Below are positions 46,819 through 63,292 of a stretch of 64,000 nt of DNA, in pieces. The DNA is taken from contig JANRLI010000007.1 of the NCBI GenBank assembly GCA_033762625.1, positions 215,541 to 279,540 of the forward strand, given 5' to 3'. The notes under the pieces were generated by a model. The model did no database searches and was not told where the DNA came from. It saw only the letters and a list, made by a program, of their open reading frames with translations. This DNA comes from Alphaproteobacteria bacterium. GTDB lineage: Bacteria > Pseudomonadota > Alphaproteobacteria > UBA9219 > RGZA01. Positions within the stretch are counted from its first letter, which is position 1. Each line of letters opens with the position of its first letter. The translations under genes were made by a program, and so were the position numbers.

Positions 46819-48135
46819 CTACGCCACTTTCTTCACGTTTGCGTTCGCAGCTTTGTCCAGGGCTTGTGAAATATCCGCGATGATGTCATCGGGGTGTTCA
46901 ATGCCGATGGACAAGCGCACATAACCCGGCGTTACACCTGTCAGCAGTTGTTCTTTTGCGTTCAACTGGCTGTGCGTTGTGGATGCTGGATGAATAGCAA
47001 GCGTACGTGCATCGCCGATGTTGGCAACGTGGTATGCCAGTTCTAATGCATCGATGAAGCTTTTACCTGCTTCAACACCGCCTTTGAGTTCAAAGCCGAT
47101 AAGCGAACCATTTCCGCCTTTCAGGTATTTCGCAGCGCGTTCCTTGGACTTACCTTCCGCGATGGATGGATGAATAACGCGGGAAACGGCGGGGTGCTTT
47201 TTCAAGAACTCCGTTACCTTCACCGCATTTTCGCAATGCGCGCGCATGCGCAATGGCAAGGTTTCTAGGCCTTGTAAAATCAGGAATGCGTTGAATGGTG
47301 CAAGTGCCGATCCCAAATCACGCAGCAAGGTTGTGCGTGCCTTGATGATATAGGCAACAGGGCCAATGCCTTTCACGGCCTGTGTCCACACGGCGCCATG
47401 GTATGACGGGTCAGGGGTGTTGAGTGCAGGTTGACGTTGCGGGAATTTTTCCCAGTCAAAGTTACCGCTGTCAATGATGATACCGCCAAGGCCGTTGCCG
47501 TGACCACCAATCCACTTGGTCAATGAATAGACAACAATTGCTGCGCCATGTTCGATGGGTTTGCAGATGATGGGGGCGGCGGTGTTATCCACGATAAGCG
47601 GAATGCCTTGTTCGCGGCCAATGGCTGCCACTTCTGCAATCGGGAATACTTCCAGTTTTGGATTTGGCAGTGTTTCTGCGTAGTAAGCGCGGGTACGTGC
47701 ATCGGTCAATTTACGGAAGTTTTCAGGATCTGCCGGGTCTGCAAAGCGCACTTCGATGCCCATATCCTTTAGCACGTTTTTGAACAGGTTGTATGTGCCG
47801 CCGTAGAGATCGGTTGAGGACACGATGTTATCACCAGCCTTGGCGATGTTTTGAATGGCAAATGCCGATGCCGATTGGCCGGAGGTGAGGGTCAGGGCTG
47901 CAACGCCGCCTTCAATTGCGGCAAGGCGTTTTTCTAGCACATCGCAGGTTGGGTTCATCAAACGGGTGTAGATGTTGCCCAGTTCTTTCAGCGCGAACAG
48001 GTTTGCGGCATGTTCGGTATCTTTGAATTCATAGGCTGTGGTTGCGTAAATGGGAACTGCAACCGCGCCGGTTGTCGGGTCGCTGCGATGGCCTGCATGC
48101 AGTGCCAGTGTTTCGGGGTGTTTCGAGTTGGTCAT
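46819..48135 (-). CDS. metY: O-acetylhomoserine sulfhydrylase MetY
   Basis: 438 residues, typical of MetY rather than the ~390-residue cystathionine synthase. The PLP-binding Lys is in [18 protein letters not shown]. Other family segments are [35 protein letters not shown] and [15 protein letters not shown]. It adds sulfide to O-acetylhomoserine to give homocysteine directly. It follows metXW by 43 bases in one transcript, so it uses the acetylhomoserine from MetX and the sulfide from the divergent cys operon. Control is by the SAM-II riboswitch at 50032. Confidence 0.95.
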
Positions 48136-48178: not shown

Positions 48179-49981
48179 TTACCTTGAAAGTATGTAAAGC
48201 CCTTGTGAGGCAAATAAATTTGCATGTTTAGCAAGCAACCCGGTGAGGGGTTTACCAACCGCATCAAGCGGGATGGATTTTTTAATGCGCATATCACCTT
48301 CTTTGGCGAATTTGCGGAAATCGTCAAGCGTACAAAAGCGAATATTGGGCGAATTGTACCAATCATAGGGCAAAGACGGTGATTTTGGCGATTGCCCGAG
48401 CAGGGCAAAGTGCAGACGTGCCTGCCAATGGCCAAAATTGGCGACGTTAACAATGACCGTGGGCGCGATGCGGCGCAGCTGCTGGAGGATTTCCAGTGGT
48501 CGGGGTAGTTCCGAAAGGGTGCGGTTTAGAATGACCACGTCATAGGCATTGTCAGGGTAAGTTTGCAAATCGGCGTTCGCATCGCCTTGAATAACACCCA
48601 AACCTTTGGCAACCGCGTTTTGAACTTTCTCGCGGTCATATTCCAACCCAAAACCGCGCACGTTTTTATGGTCGATCAGCCATTTCAATAATGTGCCATC
48701 ACCGCAGCCCACATCAAGCACGCGGGTGTTGGCAGGCACTTCATCCGCAATCATTTGCAATTCTTCGGGCAATGCGCTGGAGAGCTGCGCAGCAGATTTT
48801 GCAACGCTGCTGCGTTTATCTTCGCAGCCTTCGATGAAACCTGCCAGTTGGCGGTGAAATTCCGGTTCATCGAGCAAGAACGCGTCATGGCCTTTATCGG
48901 ATTCAATATCGATATAGCTGACATCGGCGTTTGCACCGGTCAGTGCCTTTACCAATGTGCGGCTTTCGGATGACGGGAATAACCAATCGCTGGTGAAGCT
49001 GACGACCAGAAAACGCGTTGGGCTTTTTGTGAAAGCCTTGGCGAGTGTACCATTGCCCAGATCATCAGCGAGATCATAATAATCCATCGCACGGGTGATA
49101 TAGAGATAGGAGTTGGGATCGAAGCGTTCGACAAAACTTTCGCCTTGATGACGCAGATAGGATTCAACTTGGAAATCCGCATCGAAACCGAATGACACGG
49201 CGGAGCGATCTTGTAAGCGGCGACCGAATTTGCGTTGCAATGCGCTTTCCGACAAATAGGTGATGTGCGCTGCCATACGCGCGACCGACAACCCGGCAGC
49301 GGGGCGCTCTTTTTCCTTTAAATACAGGCCTTGATGCCATAACGGGTCAGCCATAATGGCTTGGCGACCAACTTCGCCAAACGCAATGTTTTGCGCCGAA
49401 TGGCGTGATGATGTGGCAATCGCCGCACATGCAAAAACATGGTTTGGATAAAGCGCTGCCCATGACAGTGCTTGCATACCCCCCAATGAACCGCCGATGA
49501 CCAAGAAAATTTGCGGAATTTCTAAATGGTCAATCAGCGCTTTTTGTGCACGCACCATATCGTTGATGGTGATGATTGGAAAATCCAATCCCCATACTTT
49601 GTTCGTTGCAGGATTTAAGCTGCGCGGTCCTTCGCTGCCCATGCAACCGCCAAGAATATTCGCGCAAATCACAAAATATTTAGAGGTGTCGATGATCTTT
49701 TCCGGCCCAACCATGATCTCCCACCAGCCAGGCTTACCCGTCACGGGGTGGTTTTCTGCAACATACTGATCGCCGGTTAAGGCGTGGCAGATAAGGATTA
49801 CATTGCTTTTATCAGGGTTCAGTGTGCCATAAGTTTGATAGGACACGTAGTAGTTGGAAAGGCTGCCGCCACAATCCAGTTTCAAGGGTTCATGTATGCC
49901 AAGTTGCACGCGTTTGCCGGGCAAACGTGCGGGGTCGAAATCTGGCAGCGATGGTGATGGAAGCAAATGTGCTTTCGTCAT
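48179..49981 (-). CDS. metXW: MetX-MetW fusion: homoserine O-acetyltransferase plus MetW
   Basis: A 600-residue chain. Residues 1-385 are MetX, an alpha/beta hydrolase with nucleophile S165 (GGSLGGM), D332 (SDWLFPS) and H365 (DKGHDAF), which acetylates homoserine. A short linker follows. Residues about 400-600 are MetW, with the SAM-type loop [15 protein letters not shown] at 421-435 and a region [20 protein letters not shown]. In most Proteobacteria metX and metW are adjacent separate genes, and MetW supports MetX activity. Here they are one polypeptide, so the partners are made one-to-one. Confidence 0.95.
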
Positions 49982-50031
49982 AAACCCGTTCCTAACTCAT
50001 CAGGACCACGGCGTTTTTCACGATTGCCATG

Positions 50032-50105
50032 CGCTTTAGCGAATATTTTACGCGGTGCAAGCTGTCCAATAAGGGAGGTTTTAAGCTCCATCAAATCCCG
50101 CGAAG
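50032..50105 (-). promoter_or_regulatory. SAM-II riboswitch for metXW-metY
   Basis: On the minus strand the leader shows the SAM-II landmarks in order: CGCGGGATTTG, then AGCTTGCACCGCG, then CGCTAAAGC. CGCGG (50102-50098) pairs with CCGCG (50055-50051) to form P1, and the CGCTAAA 3' strand would close the pseudoknot. It ends about 50 bases before the metXW ATG. High SAM would block expression. Confidence 0.82.
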
Positions 50106-50240
50106 AAGCTGCTAATGAGACAGCGTTCTTGAATTCATACTAGTTGATTGGGGATTTGAATGTCAAATGTGTTTTCATTTTCTCTTGACGAAAGGGAATT
50201 GGCTGCCTATTTATTGCTCATTCGTTGGGGTAAAACCCAG

Positions 50241-50290
50241 CCGCGGGATTTGAGGGGCAGCTTGCAACCGCGTCAACAAGTGCTAAAGCG
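50241..50290 (+). promoter_or_regulatory. SAM-II riboswitch for the cys-met operon
   Basis: The plus strand reads CCGCGGGATTTGAGGGG, CAGCTTGCAACCGCG, then AACAAGTGCTAAAGC, a close match to the SAM-II consensus and similar to the copy at 50032-50105. CGCGG pairs with CCGCG (P1). It begins about 320 bases before cysG and shares the intergenic region with the divergent copy. Confidence 0.85.
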
Positions 50291-50561
50291 CTACAGCGTC
50301 AGTACGTGTAACTGGCCTCGCCCGAGTGGTTGTTCTGCATGTGCGGAATAGAGCGAACGGCGAATAAAAGCTGTAGACCCCCCGTATTTTGATGGTTTCA
50401 TCTGCCTGAAAAATGCGCATTTTAAGCGGGAAAGTCTATCAGCGTTTTGCAAGCGTTTCGTCTTGCAACACATCCTTAAAACTTCCCCGTTTTTTGTATT
50501 TTCTGCTTTTGTGACGCAGTTATTTAACCGATAACTTGCCGTCACCTTTACGGGGTTTTTA
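50291..50561 (+). other. Long cysG leader with stem-loop
   Basis: No gene is supported in these 270 bases. Near the end (50511-50545) a stem-loop forms: GTGACG/CGTCAC outer and AGTTAT/ATAACT inner. The start codon at 50562 has only a weak CGGGG ribosome site. The stem could link riboswitch state to translation. Confidence 0.5.
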
Positions 50562-52004
50562 ATGAGTTACGCACCACTATTTTTCAAACTGGGCCCAACG
50601 ACCCGCTTCACCATTATTGGTGGAGGAAACATTGCGCTGTCAAAAACCGAAACACTCACAGGTCTTGGCGCAAAAGTGCATGTTGCGGCACGTGAAATTC
50701 TCCCCGAACTTAAAGTTTTACTTGAAGCAACCGACGGCAGCTTTGTGGAAGCTGAATACGCTACATCACAACTCAGCAGCGCTACAATTATTATCGCCGC
50801 AACCGATGATCATGCATTAAACGAACGCATTTATAGGGATGCCAAGGACCAGCGCAAAATCGTCAATGTAGTGGACACGCCCGAATTATGTGATTTTATT
50901 TTTCCCGCCACCATCAAGCGCGGCGATGTACAAATCGCCATTTCATCGGCCGGTGTTTCGCCATCATTGGCGCGTGCCATTAAACGTAAGATTGAACACG
51001 TGTTGCCGTGGAATTTGCAGGCGCTAACGAACTGGATCAAAGAAAAGCGCGATGTAGTAAAGGCGCATTTGAACGGTATTCAAGCACGCCGCTTGTTCTG
51101 GGATGAAGTGCTGGATGGCGGCATTGCGCAGGAAGTGGTGGAGGGTAATAACGCCAAGGCGGAAACGCTGTTTGCGCAGGCCATTTCCGAAGCGCCAGCA
51201 TCATCCCGAGCAGCATTATATTTAGTGGGCGCTGGCCCGGGTCATCCTGATTATATCACCGTGCGCGGCACGCAATTATTGGGGCAGGCGGATGTTGTTT
51301 TATATGACCGTTTGATCCCGCCGGATTTGCTGACCCGCTATGCACGCCGCGAAGCAACCAAAATTGCAGTCGGCAAAAGTGCAGATCATCATATTAAAAC
51401 GCAGGATGCGATTGCGGAATTAATTGAAACGCATTTGCGCCAAAACAAAATCGTGGTGCGGTTAAAAGGTGGGGACCCCGGTATTTACGCGCATGCGGCG
51501 GAAGAAATGGATATTGCACGGAAACTTGGCGTTCCATATCAGATCGTGCCAGGTATTACCGCGGCACTGGGCTGCGCGGCTGCATCCGGTTTTCCGCTCA
51601 CCGAGCGTGATGGCGCAAGCGCTGTGCGTTTCCTGACCTATTATGATGAAACATTATACAGCGATGGTTTCTGGAAATCGTTGGAGTTATCGCGCGATGA
51701 AACCTTGGTGTTCTATATGACCACCAAGAAGCGCAAGTCACTTATCGAGAAACTGCTGTCGATTGGGTATAATCCATCAACGCCAACGGTGATTATTGAA
51801 CAGGGCACAACGCCGAACCACGCCGAATATGAAGCAACGCTTGGCACATTCATTGAGCGTTTTGGCGATACCAATTTTATTACCCCAACACTGCTGGTGA
51901 TCGGTGATGTGGTACGCTGGCGTTCAACCCATAGCTGGCGCGAACCCGCCGCGACACGCGAAGACTGGTTTGAAAAAAATACGCGCGAGGTGGCGAGTGT
52001 CTAA
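50562..52004 (+). CDS. cysG: Siroheme synthase CysG (bifunctional/trifunctional)
   Basis: 480 residues. The N-terminal third has an NAD-binding loop TIIGGGNIALSKTETLTGLG and NVVDTPELCDFIFPA, the precorrin-2 dehydrogenase/ferrochelatase (SirC) part. The C-terminal part, YLVGAGPGHPDYITVRGTQL with VVRLKGGDPGIYAHAAEE and GITAALGCAAASGFPLTER, is uroporphyrinogen-III methyltransferase. It makes the siroheme needed by CysI. It is first in an eight-gene run with overlaps or gaps of a few bases, all under the SAM-II switch. Confidence 0.94.
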   Translation: MSYAPLFFKLGPTTRFTIIGGGNIALSKTETLTGLGAKVHVAAREILPELKVLLEATDGSFVEAEYATSQLSSATIIIAATDDHALNERIYRDAKDQRKIVNVVDTPELCDFIFPATIKRGDVQIAISSAGVSPSLARAIKRKIEHVLPWNLQALTNWIKEKRDVVKAHLNGIQARRLFWDEVLDGGIAQEVVEGNNAKAETLFAQAISEAPASSRAALYLVGAGPGHPDYITVRGTQLLGQADVVLYDRLIPPDLLTRYARREATKIAVGKSADHHIKTQDAIAELIETHLRQNKIVVRLKGGDPGIYAHAAEEMDIARKLGVPYQIVPGITAALGCAAASGFPLTERDGASAVRFLTYYDETLYSDGFWKSLELSRDETLVFYMTTKKRKSLIEKLLSIGYNPSTPTVIIEQGTTPNHAEYEATLGTFIERFGDTNFITPTLLVIGDVVRWRSTHSWREPAATREDWFEKNTREVASV

Positions 52005-58907: not shown

Positions 58908-61900
58908 ATGGCCTCGCTTCTTGAGACATTAAAAGAACGTGTATTGCTGTGCGATGGCGCTATGGGCAGCCGTGTGCAATTGCTGGATCTTGATGTTGAA
59001 AAAGATTATTTGGGCAATGAAAACTGCACCGAAATTTTGAACCTTTCGCGCCCTGAACTGGTGGTTGAAATCCACAAGGGCTATCTCGCGGCTGGCGCGG
59101 ATATGATCCTCACAAATTCGTTTGGCGGTTCGGCTGTAACGCTCGCCGAATTCGATTTGCAGGATAAAACCCATGAAATCAACAAACGTGCCGCTGAATT
59201 GGCGCGTGAAGCCATTTCACATTTCAAAGATCGCCCGCGTTTTGCGTTGGGTTCGATTGGCCCCGGCACAAAACTGTTGTCGCTTGGCCATATTGAATAT
59301 GACGTAGCGGAAGATGCGTTTAAACGTCAAGCCGTTGGCCTGATTGAAGGCGGCGTGGATGCCATTTTAATTGAAACCTGCCAAGACCCGCTGCAAATCA
59401 AGGCGGCAGTGAATGGCGCAAAACTGGCGCGGGAGCAATTAAAAAAGCACGTCCCGATTTTTGTAACCGTAACAATTGAAGTGACGGGCACAATGCTGGT
59501 GGGCACAGATATTGCGGGCGCCGCAACGATTATTGAAAGCTTGGGCGTTGATCTGGTCGGCTTGAATTGCGCAACAGGCCCACGTGAAATGATGGATCAT
59601 GTGCGCTGGCTGTCTGAAAACTGGCCACGCATGCTTGGCGTGCAACCTAATGCCGGATTGCCGGAATTGGTGGATGGTAAAACCCATTACCCGCTGGGCC
59701 CTTGTGATCTTGAACATTCACTGGAACGCTTCGTAACCGAATTCGGCATGAATTTTATCGGCGGTTGCTGTGGCACGAATGTGGAGCACATTGAACACCT
59801 TGATAAAATGCTGCGCCGTATTGCCGAAGATGGGGTACGCCCAAAGCCCAAGAAGCGTAACCCAACATGGACGCCAACCGTTGCATCATTGTACGGGCAG
59901 GTAAGTCTGCGTCAGGAAAATGCTTATCTCGCGATTGGGGAGCGTTGTAATGCCAATGGCAGCAAGCAATGGCGGATGTTGCAGGAAAAGAATGACTGGG
60001 ATGGCTGCGTTAAAATGGCGCGTGAGCAGGTGCAGGAAGGTTCCAACGCGCTGGATGTGTGCACCGCATTTGTTGGCCGCGACGAAGTCTATGAAATGGG
60101 CGAAGTGATAAAGCGCTTTGCCGTTTCTATTCAGGCGCCACTGGTTGTTGATAGTACCGAATATAAGGTTTTAGAATCCTCGCTTAAACTTTATGGCGGC
60201 AAAGCCATTATTAACTCCATCAACTTCGAAGATGGTGAAGAGCCCGCACGCCAACGCTTGCGACTTGCTCGTAAGTTTGGTTGCTCGGTTATAGCGCTGA
60301 CCATTGATGAAAAAGGCATGGCGAAGGAGCCACAACATAAGCTGGAAATCGCCAAGCGTTTATATGATATGGCCGTGAATGAATTTGGTCTGCCGCCGGA
60401 AGATTTATTGTTCGACCCGCTGACCTTCACCGTGGCAACGGGAAATGAGGACGACCGCAAGCTAGGGTTATGGACCTTGGAAGGCATCGAGCTGATTTCC
60501 AAGGCCATGCCAAAATGCCAGATTATATTGGGGTTATCGAATATTTCTTTCGGTCTTAATCCACCCGCGCGGCACGTTTTGAACTCCGTGATGCTGGATT
60601 TGGCCATGAAGCGCGGATTGACGGGCGCAATCGTGCACCATTCCAAAATCATGGCCTTGCACAAAATTCCGGAAGAAGAAGTGCGCATCGCCGAGGATTT
60701 GATTTTTGACCGCCGCAAGGATGGATATGATCCGCTGCATGCCTTCATGGCGCTATTTGCAAACCGCACGACTGCGGATGCGGTTAAGAAAAACCGCCCC
60801 GATACGGTTGAAGAATGTCTGAAACAACGTATTGTCGATGGCGACAGTATTGGATTAGAAGCCGATTTGGATGAGGCGCTAAAAAAATACAAGCCGCTTG
60901 AAATCATCAATACGCTGTTGCTGGACGGTATGAAGGTGGTAGGCGAATTGTTTGGCGCAGGCAAAATGCAATTGCCGTTTGTGCTGCAATCTGCCGAAAC
61001 CATGAAAAAATCCGTCGCGTTCCTTGAGCCGTTTATGGAAAAAGTGGAAGGGCAGGAAAAAGGCGTGATGGTATTGGCCACGGTAAAGGGCGATGTGCAC
61101 GATATTGGTAAAAATCTGGTGGACATCATCCTCACCAATAATGGCTATAAGGTAGTGAATTTGGGCATCAAACAGCCGATTGAAGCGATTTTGGATGCAG
61201 CCAAGGCGCATAACGCCAATGCAATTGGGATGTCCGGCTTGCTGGTGAAATCGACCGTGATTATGAAAGAAAATCTTGCCGAAATGTCAAAGCAGGGGCT
61301 TAGCATTCCGGTGATGCTTGGCGGCGCAGCACTTACACGTGGCTATGTGTATTCCGATTGCTCGGAAAGCTACACAACAGGGCAGGTGGCATACGCCAAT
61401 GATGCATTCGACGGCCTTGGGCTGATGAACAAGGTGATGGATGGGACTTTTGGCGATTTTGTAGCAGCGGAAAAACAGCGCACGCGTCCGCGCCGTAAAG
61501 TTGCCGAAACGCCAACAGCCGAGGAAAGCATTTTTGCTGAAACCACCGACCCCGTTGCCGCACGTGAAAAGCGCGAGAAAATGGGGCAGGGGATTGTTGT
61601 GCCCAAACCGCCATTCTGGGGGCACAAGATTATTGATTATGTGCCCGCTGAAACGCTTATACCGTTTGTCAACGAGCGCTCATTATACATGCAGCAATGG
61701 GGCTTTAAGAAGCAGGGCAAACGCATTGAAGAGTATATGGAAGATGCAAAGCGCGAATACCGCCCTATATTAAAGCGCATATTGGAAGATGCAAACCATG
61801 ATAAGGCATTAAATGCCACAGCATCTTATGGCTATTGGCCCGCTGCCGCCGAAGGTAATGATGTAGTGATTTTTGATGCACAGGATCATAACAAGGAAAT

Positions 61901-62405
61901 CGTGCGCTTCACATTACCGCGCCGCAAACCCGAAGCCGACGGCACACCGGGCATTTGCATTGCGGATTTCTTTAAGGATATTGGTGCGGCAACGCGCGAT
62001 GTTATTGGGTTGCAAATCGTGACGATGGGCGAGCGCGCATCGGAAGTTTCCAGAGAATGGTTCCAGCAAAACCGCTATCAGGATTATATGTTCCTGCATG
62101 GCCTTTCCGTCGAATGCACCGAAGGCATGGCAGAATATGTGCATGCCCGTATCCGCAGCGAATTGGGGTTCGGCCATGAAGATGCAACCGACATGGAAAA
62201 GCTGTTGCAACAGGGCTATCGCGGTAGCCGTTATTCATTTGGCTATGCCGCATGCCCACGTCTTGAAGATCAGGAACCGATTTTGAAATTGCTCCATGCC
62301 GAGGAAGTTGGCATTGCTTTGACGGATGAATTCATGCTCCACCCCGAACAAAGCACATCAGCGATTGTGGTGCATCATCCTGCGGCACGCTATTTCAACG
62401 TCTAG
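58908..62405 (+). CDS. metH: Cobalamin-dependent methionine synthase MetH
   Basis: 1165 residues with all four modules. Homocysteine domain: zinc ligands C221 (GLNCATGP), C287 and C288 (IGGCCGTNVEHI). Pterin domain: about 330-620 (AYLAIGERCNANGSKQWRML). Helical cap: around 640-720 (MQLPFVLQSAETMKKSVAF). Cobalamin domain: DVHDIGKNL with His731 as lower ligand. The C-terminal activation domain runs from about 840, with ADFFKDIGAATRDVIGLQIV and ATDMEKLLQQGYRGSRYSFG. It makes methionine and ends the operon. B12 synthesis genes are not in the window. Confidence 0.97.
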   Translation: MASLLETLKERVLLCDGAMGSRVQLLDLDVEKDYLGNENCTEILNLSRPELVVEIHKGYLAAGADMILTNSFGGSAVTLAEFDLQDKTHEINKRAAELAREAISHFKDRPRFALGSIGPGTKLLSLGHIEYDVAEDAFKRQAVGLIEGGVDAILIETCQDPLQIKAAVNGAKLAREQLKKHVPIFVTVTIEVTGTMLVGTDIAGAATIIESLGVDLVGLNCATGPREMMDHVRWLSENWPRMLGVQPNAGLPELVDGKTHYPLGPCDLEHSLERFVTEFGMNFIGGCCGTNVEHIEHLDKMLRRIAEDGVRPKPKKRNPTWTPTVASLYGQVSLRQENAYLAIGERCNANGSKQWRMLQEKNDWDGCVKMAREQVQEGSNALDVCTAFVGRDEVYEMGEVIKRFAVSIQAPLVVDSTEYKVLESSLKLYGGKAIINSINFEDGEEPARQRLRLARKFGCSVIALTIDEKGMAKEPQHKLEIAKRLYDMAVNEFGLPPEDLLFDPLTFTVATGNEDDRKLGLWTLEGIELISKAMPKCQIILGLSNISFGLNPPARHVLNSVMLDLAMKRGLTGAIVHHSKIMALHKIPEEEVRIAEDLIFDRRKDGYDPLHAFMALFANRTTADAVKKNRPDTVEECLKQRIVDGDSIGLEADLDEALKKYKPLEIINTLLLDGMKVVGELFGAGKMQLPFVLQSAETMKKSVAFLEPFMEKVEGQEKGVMVLATVKGDVHDIGKNLVDIILTNNGYKVVNLGIKQPIEAILDAAKAHNANAIGMSGLLVKSTVIMKENLAEMSKQGLSIPVMLGGAALTRGYVYSDCSESYTTGQVAYANDAFDGLGLMNKVMDGTFGDFVAAEKQRTRPRRKVAETPTAEESIFAETTDPVAAREKREKMGQGIVVPKPPFWGHKIIDYVPAETLIPFVNERSLYMQQWGFKKQGKRIEEYMEDAKREYRPILKRILEDANHDKALNATASYGYWPAAAEGNDVVIFDAQDHNKEIVRFTLPRRKPEADGTPGICIADFFKDIGAATRDVIGLQIVTMGERASEVSREWFQQNRYQDYMFLHGLSVECTEGMAEYVHARIRSELGFGHEDATDMEKLLQQGYRGSRYSFGYAACPRLEDQEPILKLLHAEEVGIALTDEFMLHPEQSTSAIVVHHPAARYFNV

Positions 62406-62407
62406 CC

Positions 62408-62941
62408 ATGTTGCATAAATTGCCAATCATCGGGGTTATGGGCGCAAGCAAAGCGCGCCATGATGAATTGACGCAGCCATTAGGATCGGCGATTGCGAAG
62501 GCGGGTTATCATCTGCTCACTGGCGGCGGCACAGGAGTGATGGAGGCCGTTTCGCAAAGCTTTACGGCAACGCAGCCACGCAAAGGGTTATGTATTGGCG
62601 TTATCCCCATGAGTGGAGTGGGCGATGCCTATAAGGTTATGCCGGACTACCCAAACCCCTATGTGGAGCTGCCTATTCAATCGCATCTGGGGATTTATGA
62701 TGGGCACGACCCGCAGCAAATCAGCCGGAATTATATCAATATCCTTACCAGTCATGTGGTGGTGATATGCCCCGGCAGCAAGGGCACGCGAAATGAATTA
62801 TCGCTCGCGCAGCAGTTTAAAAAGCCGTTCATATTATTCGGGAATGAAGCGCAGTTCGCCGAATTTCCTTCGGGCTTACGACGAACAGATGATCTTCATC
62901 AGGTCATGCTGTATATTCAAAATAATCTATCGTTATCATAA
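62408..62941 (+). CDS. SLOG/TIGR00725-like Rossmann protein, 177 aa
   Basis: It starts LPIIGVMGASKARHDE, has the nucleotide-binding turn LLTGGGTGVMEAVSQSF and later VVVICPGSKGTRNELSLAQQ, which corresponds to the PGGxGTxxE motif of LOG/MoCo-carrier-like proteins. The changed PGSKGT-RNE form could mean altered catalysis. It lies two bases after metH and may be in the same transcript. The true substrate is unknown. Confidence 0.75.
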   Translation: MLHKLPIIGVMGASKARHDELTQPLGSAIAKAGYHLLTGGGTGVMEAVSQSFTATQPRKGLCIGVIPMSGVGDAYKVMPDYPNPYVELPIQSHLGIYDGHDPQQISRNYINILTSHVVVICPGSKGTRNELSLAQQFKKPFILFGNEAQFAEFPSGLRRTDDLHQVMLYIQNNLSLS

Positions 62942-62956
62942 AGGCAGCGTAAAACC

Positions 62957-63292
62957 ATGAACGTATCACGGCGGCAGGTATTGGGCGGTTTAGGTGCAGC
63001 AACATTTTTGGCAGCATTTTCACCTGCGTATCTGGGCAGCGAAGTAGTGATGCATGGGTATTTGAAACCATACGGCATGATGGGTAAGTATGTGTTCAGC
63101 GCAACGCCATTCCATTGCCTTGAATGTTTCAGGGGTGATGAAACCACGCTGATGCTTGTCGATTTAAAGGGCACCGCGCCCCATGCAGGCAAAGTTCAAT
63201 TAAAAGGCGTTTTACAGGCATTTTATGGTAAAACCGGCATGTTCGCAGCCAGGTTAAAAGACGCAAGATGCGTAAAAAACGCTTTCGTTTAG
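62957..63292 (+). CDS. Small exported protein with Tat-like signal, 111 aa
   Basis: It begins NVSRRQVLGGLGAATFLAAF, an SRRQ twin-arginine signal followed by a hydrophobic stretch. The ~80-residue mature part contains FHCLECFRGDETTLMLVDLK, a beta-rich domain and one more Cys. Tat export suggests a folded or cofactor-bearing periplasmic protein. Not recognised as a family. Confidence 0.7.
   Translation: MNVSRRQVLGGLGAATFLAAFSPAYLGSEVVMHGYLKPYGMMGKYVFSATPFHCLECFRGDETTLMLVDLKGTAPHAGKVQLKGVLQAFYGKTGMFAARLKDARCVKNAFV

Follow-up and report, generated by a model that had tools for sequence, protein, structure and literature searches.

Divergent SAM-II aptamers with a probable hairpin-split pseudoknot stem upstream of metXW-metY and of a sulfate assimilation run in an alphaproteobacterium

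A single intergenic region within a 64 kb stretch of alphaproteobacterial DNA (the window) carries two SAM-II aptamers on opposite strands, one in the leader of metXW-metY and the other in the leader of a run extending from cysG to metH. In both, a hairpin (P3) probably splits the P2 stem of the pseudoknot, and the two elements most likely lower the expression of their genes at high concentrations of SAM, their presumed ligand. This form, with its P3 hairpin, is common among alphaproteobacterial SAM-II aptamers; together with a four-member SAM-II set in the genome of the window (G000), it is what is new here.

Results

Identification of the aptamers

The landmarks GGGATTTG, GCTTGCA and GCTAAAG occur in the same order on both strands of the intergenic region. 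An initial annotation had proposed two divergent SAM-II riboswitches at this place, and both the landmarks and the scores of an independent model bear this out; the region that it delimited (50032-50290) is the right one, but stops short of the minus copy's upstream end and of every downstream part (P3′, P4′ and the Shine-Dalgarno sites).

An Rfam scan of the window at curated cut-offs called no SAM-II. At permissive settings, RF01726 (SAM-II long loop) scored the plus copy at 32.9 bits (E 2.5e-4 in a 721-base stretch; 50237-50296) and the minus copy at 19.4 bits (E 0.5; 50107-50026), while RF00521 (SAM_alpha) gave 24.9 and 15.5 bits, respectively; both copies thus fall below both gathering scores (44 for RF01726, 36 for RF00521). 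A search of the genome with RF00521 returned nothing at E 0.001, which was not taken as absence, since 14 control genomes were also silent.

Scores as low as these called for an independent test. A pattern scan of genome contigs yielded 119 loci, and a covariance model (R1) was built from 40 aligned SAM-II aptamers of other genomes, the window's genus being excluded. R1 scored the plus copy (50240-50295) at 73.7 bits (E 1.3e-18) and the minus copy (50104-50027) at 36.0 bits (E 2.9e-8), E-values that are rough because the calibration was short; the third-best match in the window reached 12.4 bits. Across the whole genome, only four places pass E 0.01, namely the divergent pair, locus B (C13:105312) and locus C (C3:115083). 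The initial annotation had named a low covariance-model score as grounds for rejecting its claim, and by Rfam alone the claim would fail, whereas the independent model scores high. None of 18 other SAM-II loci with plain cores (0/18) reaches the Rfam gathering score, so that the cut-off, rather than the RNA, is the likely reason for the sub-threshold scores: Rfam is insensitive to this SAM-II form.

Structural features agree with the assignment. The core that is invariant in the 40 foreign copies, GGGAUUUGA / AGCUUGCA / GCUAAAGC, equals the core present here, the foreign copies having been picked by a pattern that contains the GCUUGCA/GCUAAAG letters. In their alignment, three of the five P1 pairs show changes on both sides, with a covariation score reached by none of 500 shuffles. 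Both window copies possess P1 (CGCGG/CCGCG) closing a loop that begins with GAUUUGA, as well as the P2 core formed by (A)GCUUGCA and GCUAAAG, and both lie in leaders before methionine or SAM genes (metXW-metY; the run with metF-metH). Neither has the distal P2 pairing directly after GCUAAAG that belongs to the RF00521 consensus; a pairing termed P4 is found instead, beyond the inserted P3. Both copies are SAM-II aptamers.

A plus copy that has decayed or lost its function, with regulation left to the minus copy, is very improbable: the plus copy lies under the Rfam cut-off and its end is about 265 nt from the cysG start codon, but its R1 score is twice that of the minus copy, it retains both P3 and P4, and it is nearly identical in the sister species G001 although the remaining leader has diverged.

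The plus-strand leader and the cysG-metH run

The plus copy precedes a run of sulfate assimilation genes that ends in metF-metH, as the initial annotation had stated and as NCBIfam matches confirm; the genes of the run are tightly spaced. The features of this side are as follows.

50185..50213, plus strand: candidate promoter of the cysG leader (TTGACG, 17 nt, TATTTA; weak -10), with the -35 conserved in G001
50240..50295, plus strand: SAM-II aptamer of the cysG-metH run, short-loop form (R1, RF01726); 72.6 bits in G001
50254..50257, plus strand: P4 5′ strand GGGG, pairing with the C run 50378-50383
50291..50376, plus strand: P3, CUACAGC (50291-50297) with GCUGUAG (50370-50376), enclosing a variable hairpin domain
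50377..50383, plus strand: ACCCCCC, P4 3′ strand; with the next GUA also complementary to the cysG Shine-Dalgarno
50394..50406, plus strand: conserved GGUUUCAUnnGCC element; in G000, 4/4 genome-wide matches lie in SAM-II leaders
50427..50495, plus strand: candidate intrinsic terminator, CGGGAAAGU...ACUUCCCCG-UUUUUU (-19.7 kcal/mol, z -3.4)
50550..50564, plus strand: cysG Shine-Dalgarno ACGGGG and start codon
50562..62405, plus strand: run cysG-cysH-cysJ-cysI-cysD-cysN-metF-metH (NCBIfam; neighbouring genes overlap or lie no more than 16 nt apart), with starts at 50562 (cysG), about 51985 (cysH), 52739 (cysJ), 54210 (cysI), 55910 (cysD), 56815 (cysN) and 58067 (metF), and metH at 58908-62405
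62408..63292, plus strand: two more co-directional ORFs (62408-62941, 62957-63292) before a tRNA gene

In this leader, GCUAAAGC is followed by GCUACAGC, which pairs with the GCUGUAG located 72 nt on; next comes ACCCCCC, in which CCCC is complementary to the GGGG directly before CAGCUUGC in the aptamer. The stretch 50291..50376 has a folding energy of -34.6 kcal/mol (z -3.2), and the P3 helix is kept in G001 despite a different enclosed stretch. Two candidate elements for passing the signal on to cysG lie further downstream. CCCCGUA is predicted to form a duplex of -12.4 kcal/mol with UACGGGG at the Shine-Dalgarno, and the candidate terminator has a 3′ arm, ACTTCCCCGTTTT, that G001 retains together with a 5′ arm able to pair with it; the 5′ arm is not conserved letter by letter, and the z in G001 is only -0.1. 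A terminator pattern scan limited to short loops did not find this candidate (50427..50495), and a pattern scan for promoters did not report the one at 50185..50213.

The minus-strand leader and metXW-metY

On the other strand, matches to MetX and MetW (in one fused ORF) and to TIGR01326 for MetY uphold the proposed metXW-metY target.

50137..50166, minus strand: promoter of the metX leader, TTGACA (50166-50161), 18 nt, TAGTAT (50142-50137); pattern scan, 10/12 consensus letters
50027..50104, minus strand: SAM-II aptamer of metXW-metY, long-loop form (R1, RF01726), conserved in G001
50064..50067, minus strand: P4 5′ strand GGAC, directly before AGCUUGC, pairing with GUCC (50006-50003); same in G001
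50007..50031, minus strand: P3, CAUGGC (50031-50026) with GCCGUG (50012-50007)
50003..50006, minus strand: P4 3′ strand GUCC, also within the 5′ arm of the hairpin predicted to mask the metX Shine-Dalgarno
49969..50024, minus strand: hairpin-folding stretch enclosing the metX Shine-Dalgarno AGGA (49993-49990) and AUG (49981-49979)
48179..49981, minus strand: metX-metW as a single ORF of 600 aa (NF001209, MetX, residues 24-390; TIGR02081, MetW, residues 407-598)
46819..48135, minus strand: metY, O-acetylhomoserine sulfhydrylase (TIGR01326, above cut-off)

The insert in the aptamer loop contains a GGAG/CUCC hairpin (50089-50074), and alignment with G001 reveals TTGACA-17-TACTAT at the place of the promoter. 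The hairpin around the metX Shine-Dalgarno is predicted at -18.3 kcal/mol (z -3.1), a stability reached by none of 200 shuffles; G001 retains this hairpin but builds it from other pairs (-16.0 kcal/mol, z -1.7). The MetX-MetW fusion also occurs in G001, and in another genome, G003, both matches lie in one open frame.

A hairpin probably inserted in the pseudoknot

Both window copies share one layout, in which GCUAAAGC is immediately followed by P3, and the strand bordering P3 on its 3′ side pairs back before GCUUGC to form P4. The same order of P3 and P4′ is found in loci B and C and in the genomes G001 and G002, while the enclosed stretch varies in length and sequence. Defined as a helix of at least 6 pairs starting 0-2 nt after GCUAAAGC, P3 is present in 71 of 107 aptamers (66%), as compared with 21% when the downstream sequence is shuffled. 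P4, defined as at least 4 Watson-Crick pairs in flexible register that join the strand preceding GCUUGC to the one immediately 3′ of P3, is present in 57 of these 71 loci, versus 3 of 71 at a control position 20 nt downstream.

In permutation tests, which leave in sequence relatedness, 41 of the 54 distinct combinations formed P4, whereas 5000 permutations averaged 16 and never exceeded 26; in a narrower register the signal was weaker (21/48, with at most 17 under permutation). The stronger argument is that P4 occurs with eleven different pair types. In a fixed-register alignment chosen on P3 only, changes on both sides were seen in 4 of 5 P4 pairs and 5 of 6 P3 pairs, and every version slid to another register scored lower for P4. 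As P3 was selected by pairing, the percentage of it that is paired is no evidence in itself; its pair types vary (CUACAG/CUGUAG, CCACAG/CUGUGG, CCACGG/CCGUGG, CCACGA/UCGUGG).

The Agrobacterium tumefaciens metA SAM-II binds SAM and requires P2 pairing to do so: changes at two P2 positions abolished the SAM response, and compensatory changes restored it (PMC1273637). By their numbering, we read these two positions as distal P2 pairs, just as we read the RF00521 consensus as pairing the distal half of P2 directly after GCUAAAG. On the simplest reading, P4 is probably the distal P2, displaced by insertion of P3 on the 3′ strand, and this displacement would account for the low Rfam scores. With one or a few unpaired letters opposite the insertion, the structure would be a three-way junction. 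P4 was also looked for, and none found, at L018/L025 (G008, RFNS01000285), where a SAM-II precedes an AstE/AspA-type protein.

Further copies and their targets

The divergent pair recurs in G001, with metXW-metY on one side and cysG-cysH-cysJ-cysI-cysD-cysN-metF-metH on the other. Other lineages also carry SAM-II before sulfate assimilation genes: in Hwanghaeella it precedes cysG, a nitrite/sulfite reductase-family protein, a DUF934 protein and metZ, and in Nisaea, cysH and a relative of ferredoxin-NADP reductase. Other copies are found before a small ORF, metF and metE (G003) and before runs containing metA (G014, G026, G031); the targets of other copies of this SAM-II form are methionine and sulfur genes (metF-metE, metA, metE, the cysG run with metZ, cysH).

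Several leaders were observed in other settings. At locus B (L020:7290-8265, G000:C13) and at L023:1271-2230 of G002, a SAM-II with the same downstream element precedes a short ORF of 69-84 aa and a gene for a protein of 183 aa that gave no Pfam match, in an operon conserved between the two species. At locus C (L021:5128-9134, G000:C3) and at L024:4559-8566 of G002, a SAM-II stands before genes for two proteins, one of 900 aa with a weak hexapeptide match and the other a RimK-like ATP-grasp protein of 319 aa; their leader, about 200 nt long, is highly conserved and in G000 has two GGGUUUCAUnnGCCC hairpins. L209 (G031:C247) carries two P3-type SAM-II about 600 nt apart on one strand before a metA-containing run, each with terminator-like hairpins. 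In G016 (L208:4616-5134), the gene that follows a SAM-II leader encodes a GAF-domain protein of 172 aa, which may be a free-methionine sulfoxide reductase, and in Halomonas (L064, L067, L070, L117) a candidate SAM-II-like pattern match precedes a 315 aa protein with a P-loop-like start.

Downstream element and origin of the copies

An order-wide search for GCUGUAG[AU]CCC...GGUUUCAUnnGCC gave ten matches, each behind a SAM-II core, while the reversed control gave 0. An element independent of SAM-II was rejected, every match in G000 lying in a SAM-II leader and the ten order-wide ones likewise; an antisense peptide (MKP..GG) over the element was also rejected, its frame not being kept between copies. 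At 50394-50406, after P4′, GGUUUCAUnnG forms a small hairpin whose loop is conserved; six genomes of the order have it (the window's, G001, G002, G003, G004 and G014).

The suggestion that the two window copies arose by an inverted duplication within the intergenic region appears improbable. Inverted repeats of 15, 12 and 10 nt do connect them, but these stretches are the consensus of the class, with letters that vary little or not at all across the 40 foreign copies. The two copies also have different loops, P3 and P4, the minus copy being a long-loop form with a P3 and P4 of its own. The plus copy is more like loci B and C of the same genome, and since its downstream part is common to all three, these are likely related by copying.

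Discussion

From aptamer to gene

In the reading that we favour, the standard P1/P2 pseudoknot core of each leader would sense SAM, and plentiful SAM would lower expression of both metXW-metY (minus strand) and the cysG-to-metH run (plus strand). Hairpin P3 would interrupt the 3′ strand of P2, with the distal part of that stem (P4) formed by the strand directly 3′ of P3. In the metX and cysG leaders, this P3′/P4′ strand may alternatively pair downstream with the Shine-Dalgarno region, and these second partners, together with the cysG terminator candidate, make it the likely link between aptamer and gene. Repression is the expected direction because the targets are biosynthetic genes.

How the strands would exchange is less straightforward. 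In G031, G016 and G026, an intrinsic terminator begins its 5′ arm directly next to P3′ and carries the P3′/P4′ strand in its loop. As the strand would mask the Shine-Dalgarno or sits in a terminator loop in the leaders of metX, cysG and some metA copies, the simple reading is that the P3/P4 state is permissive; with SAM stabilising P4, the naive prediction would then be activation, at odds with biosynthetic targets. P3/P4 may in part be a structure of the SAM-free RNA, or else the neighbouring stem may stack on P3 and cooperate with it. Minimum-free-energy folding, run with the aptamer free and blocked, formed P3 in the blocked state in the plus copy and locus C, but not in locus B or G001, a mixed outcome by which folding does not settle the switch.

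Taken to its full extent, the former option would make P3/P4 the SAM-free state, which frees the Shine-Dalgarno or holds off the terminator until SAM binding breaks it. We consider this possible but rather unlikely, since P4 takes the position of the distal P2 in the RF00521 consensus, P2 pairing is required for SAM binding in A. tumefaciens (PMC1273637), and the constant short linkers resemble one three-way junction. It would nevertheless yield the SAM repression that the targets demand, and it agrees with the competition between P3/P4 and a masking structure in metX, locus B and L079, with the interlocking of P3/P4 and terminator in G031, G016 and G026, and with a nucleotide before the unpaired A that covaries with both possible partners (L052 vs L104).

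A broader proposal, which we put forward tentatively and consider less likely than not, is that these RNAs constitute a widespread SAM-II subclass below Rfam thresholds, in which P3 splits P2 into a three-way junction and P3′/P4′ is the common switching strand, shared with Shine-Dalgarno or terminator. P3/P4 would be permissive in some members, and would there be a SAM-free structure, or SAM might even raise expression; one ancestral composite might have been copied to give the four-member set of this lineage (sulfate assimilation and two other operons).

Relation to known systems

The copies described here share with the SAM-II families RF00521 and RF01726 P1, the L1 sequence GAUUUGA, the P2 core (GCUUGC/GCUAAAG), the distal P2 pairing and a position before methionine genes in alphaproteobacteria. 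They differ in that P3 parts the distal P2 from the P2 core, the sixth P1 pair of RF00521 is absent, both gathering cut-offs are missed, and the plus copy heads sulfate assimilation genes, metF and metH. The Sinorhizobium meliloti metZ and metA leaders likewise place SAM-II aptamers before methionine genes, with control predicted via a terminator for metZ and via Shine-Dalgarno masking for metA; genes and downstream parts differ from those here, and the portions of that report consulted mention no P3 insertion (PMC9373788). The same kind of pseudoknot aptamer occurs in Pelagibacter SAM-V and in the SAM-II/SAM-V tandem; SAM-V is without the final pairing element at the 3′ end, whereas the window copies retain it at a place shifted by P3, and they are divergent rather than tandem (PMC2704228).

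Leyn et al. (2014; PMC4239095) list metY as the core SAM_alpha target, with hom, metA, metX, metC and metW as others, and their main text nowhere uses the words sulfate, cysH or cysD; the claim of the initial annotation that the plus-strand target is broader than the usual met genes therefore holds with respect to this published regulon. In the open-access papers searched, we found no description of SAM-II over sulfate assimilation, nor of a P3 insertion in SAM-II.

A single type of SAM sensor over both sulfate assimilation and methionine genes is familiar from the S-box (SAM-I) of Firmicutes, an unrelated RNA class in another phylum. If the reading favoured here is right, SAM feedback in this lineage would span sulfate activation and reduction, siroheme, and homocysteine synthesis and methylation from one divergent region, a reach wider than that of the published SAM-II regulon. 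A corrected model would add many alphaproteobacterial riboswitches that are currently missed at Rfam thresholds, and P3/P4 would offer a concrete, testable structure for the connection between SAM-II and gene, a link that was still to be established according to Barrick and Breaker (2007; PMC2258182).
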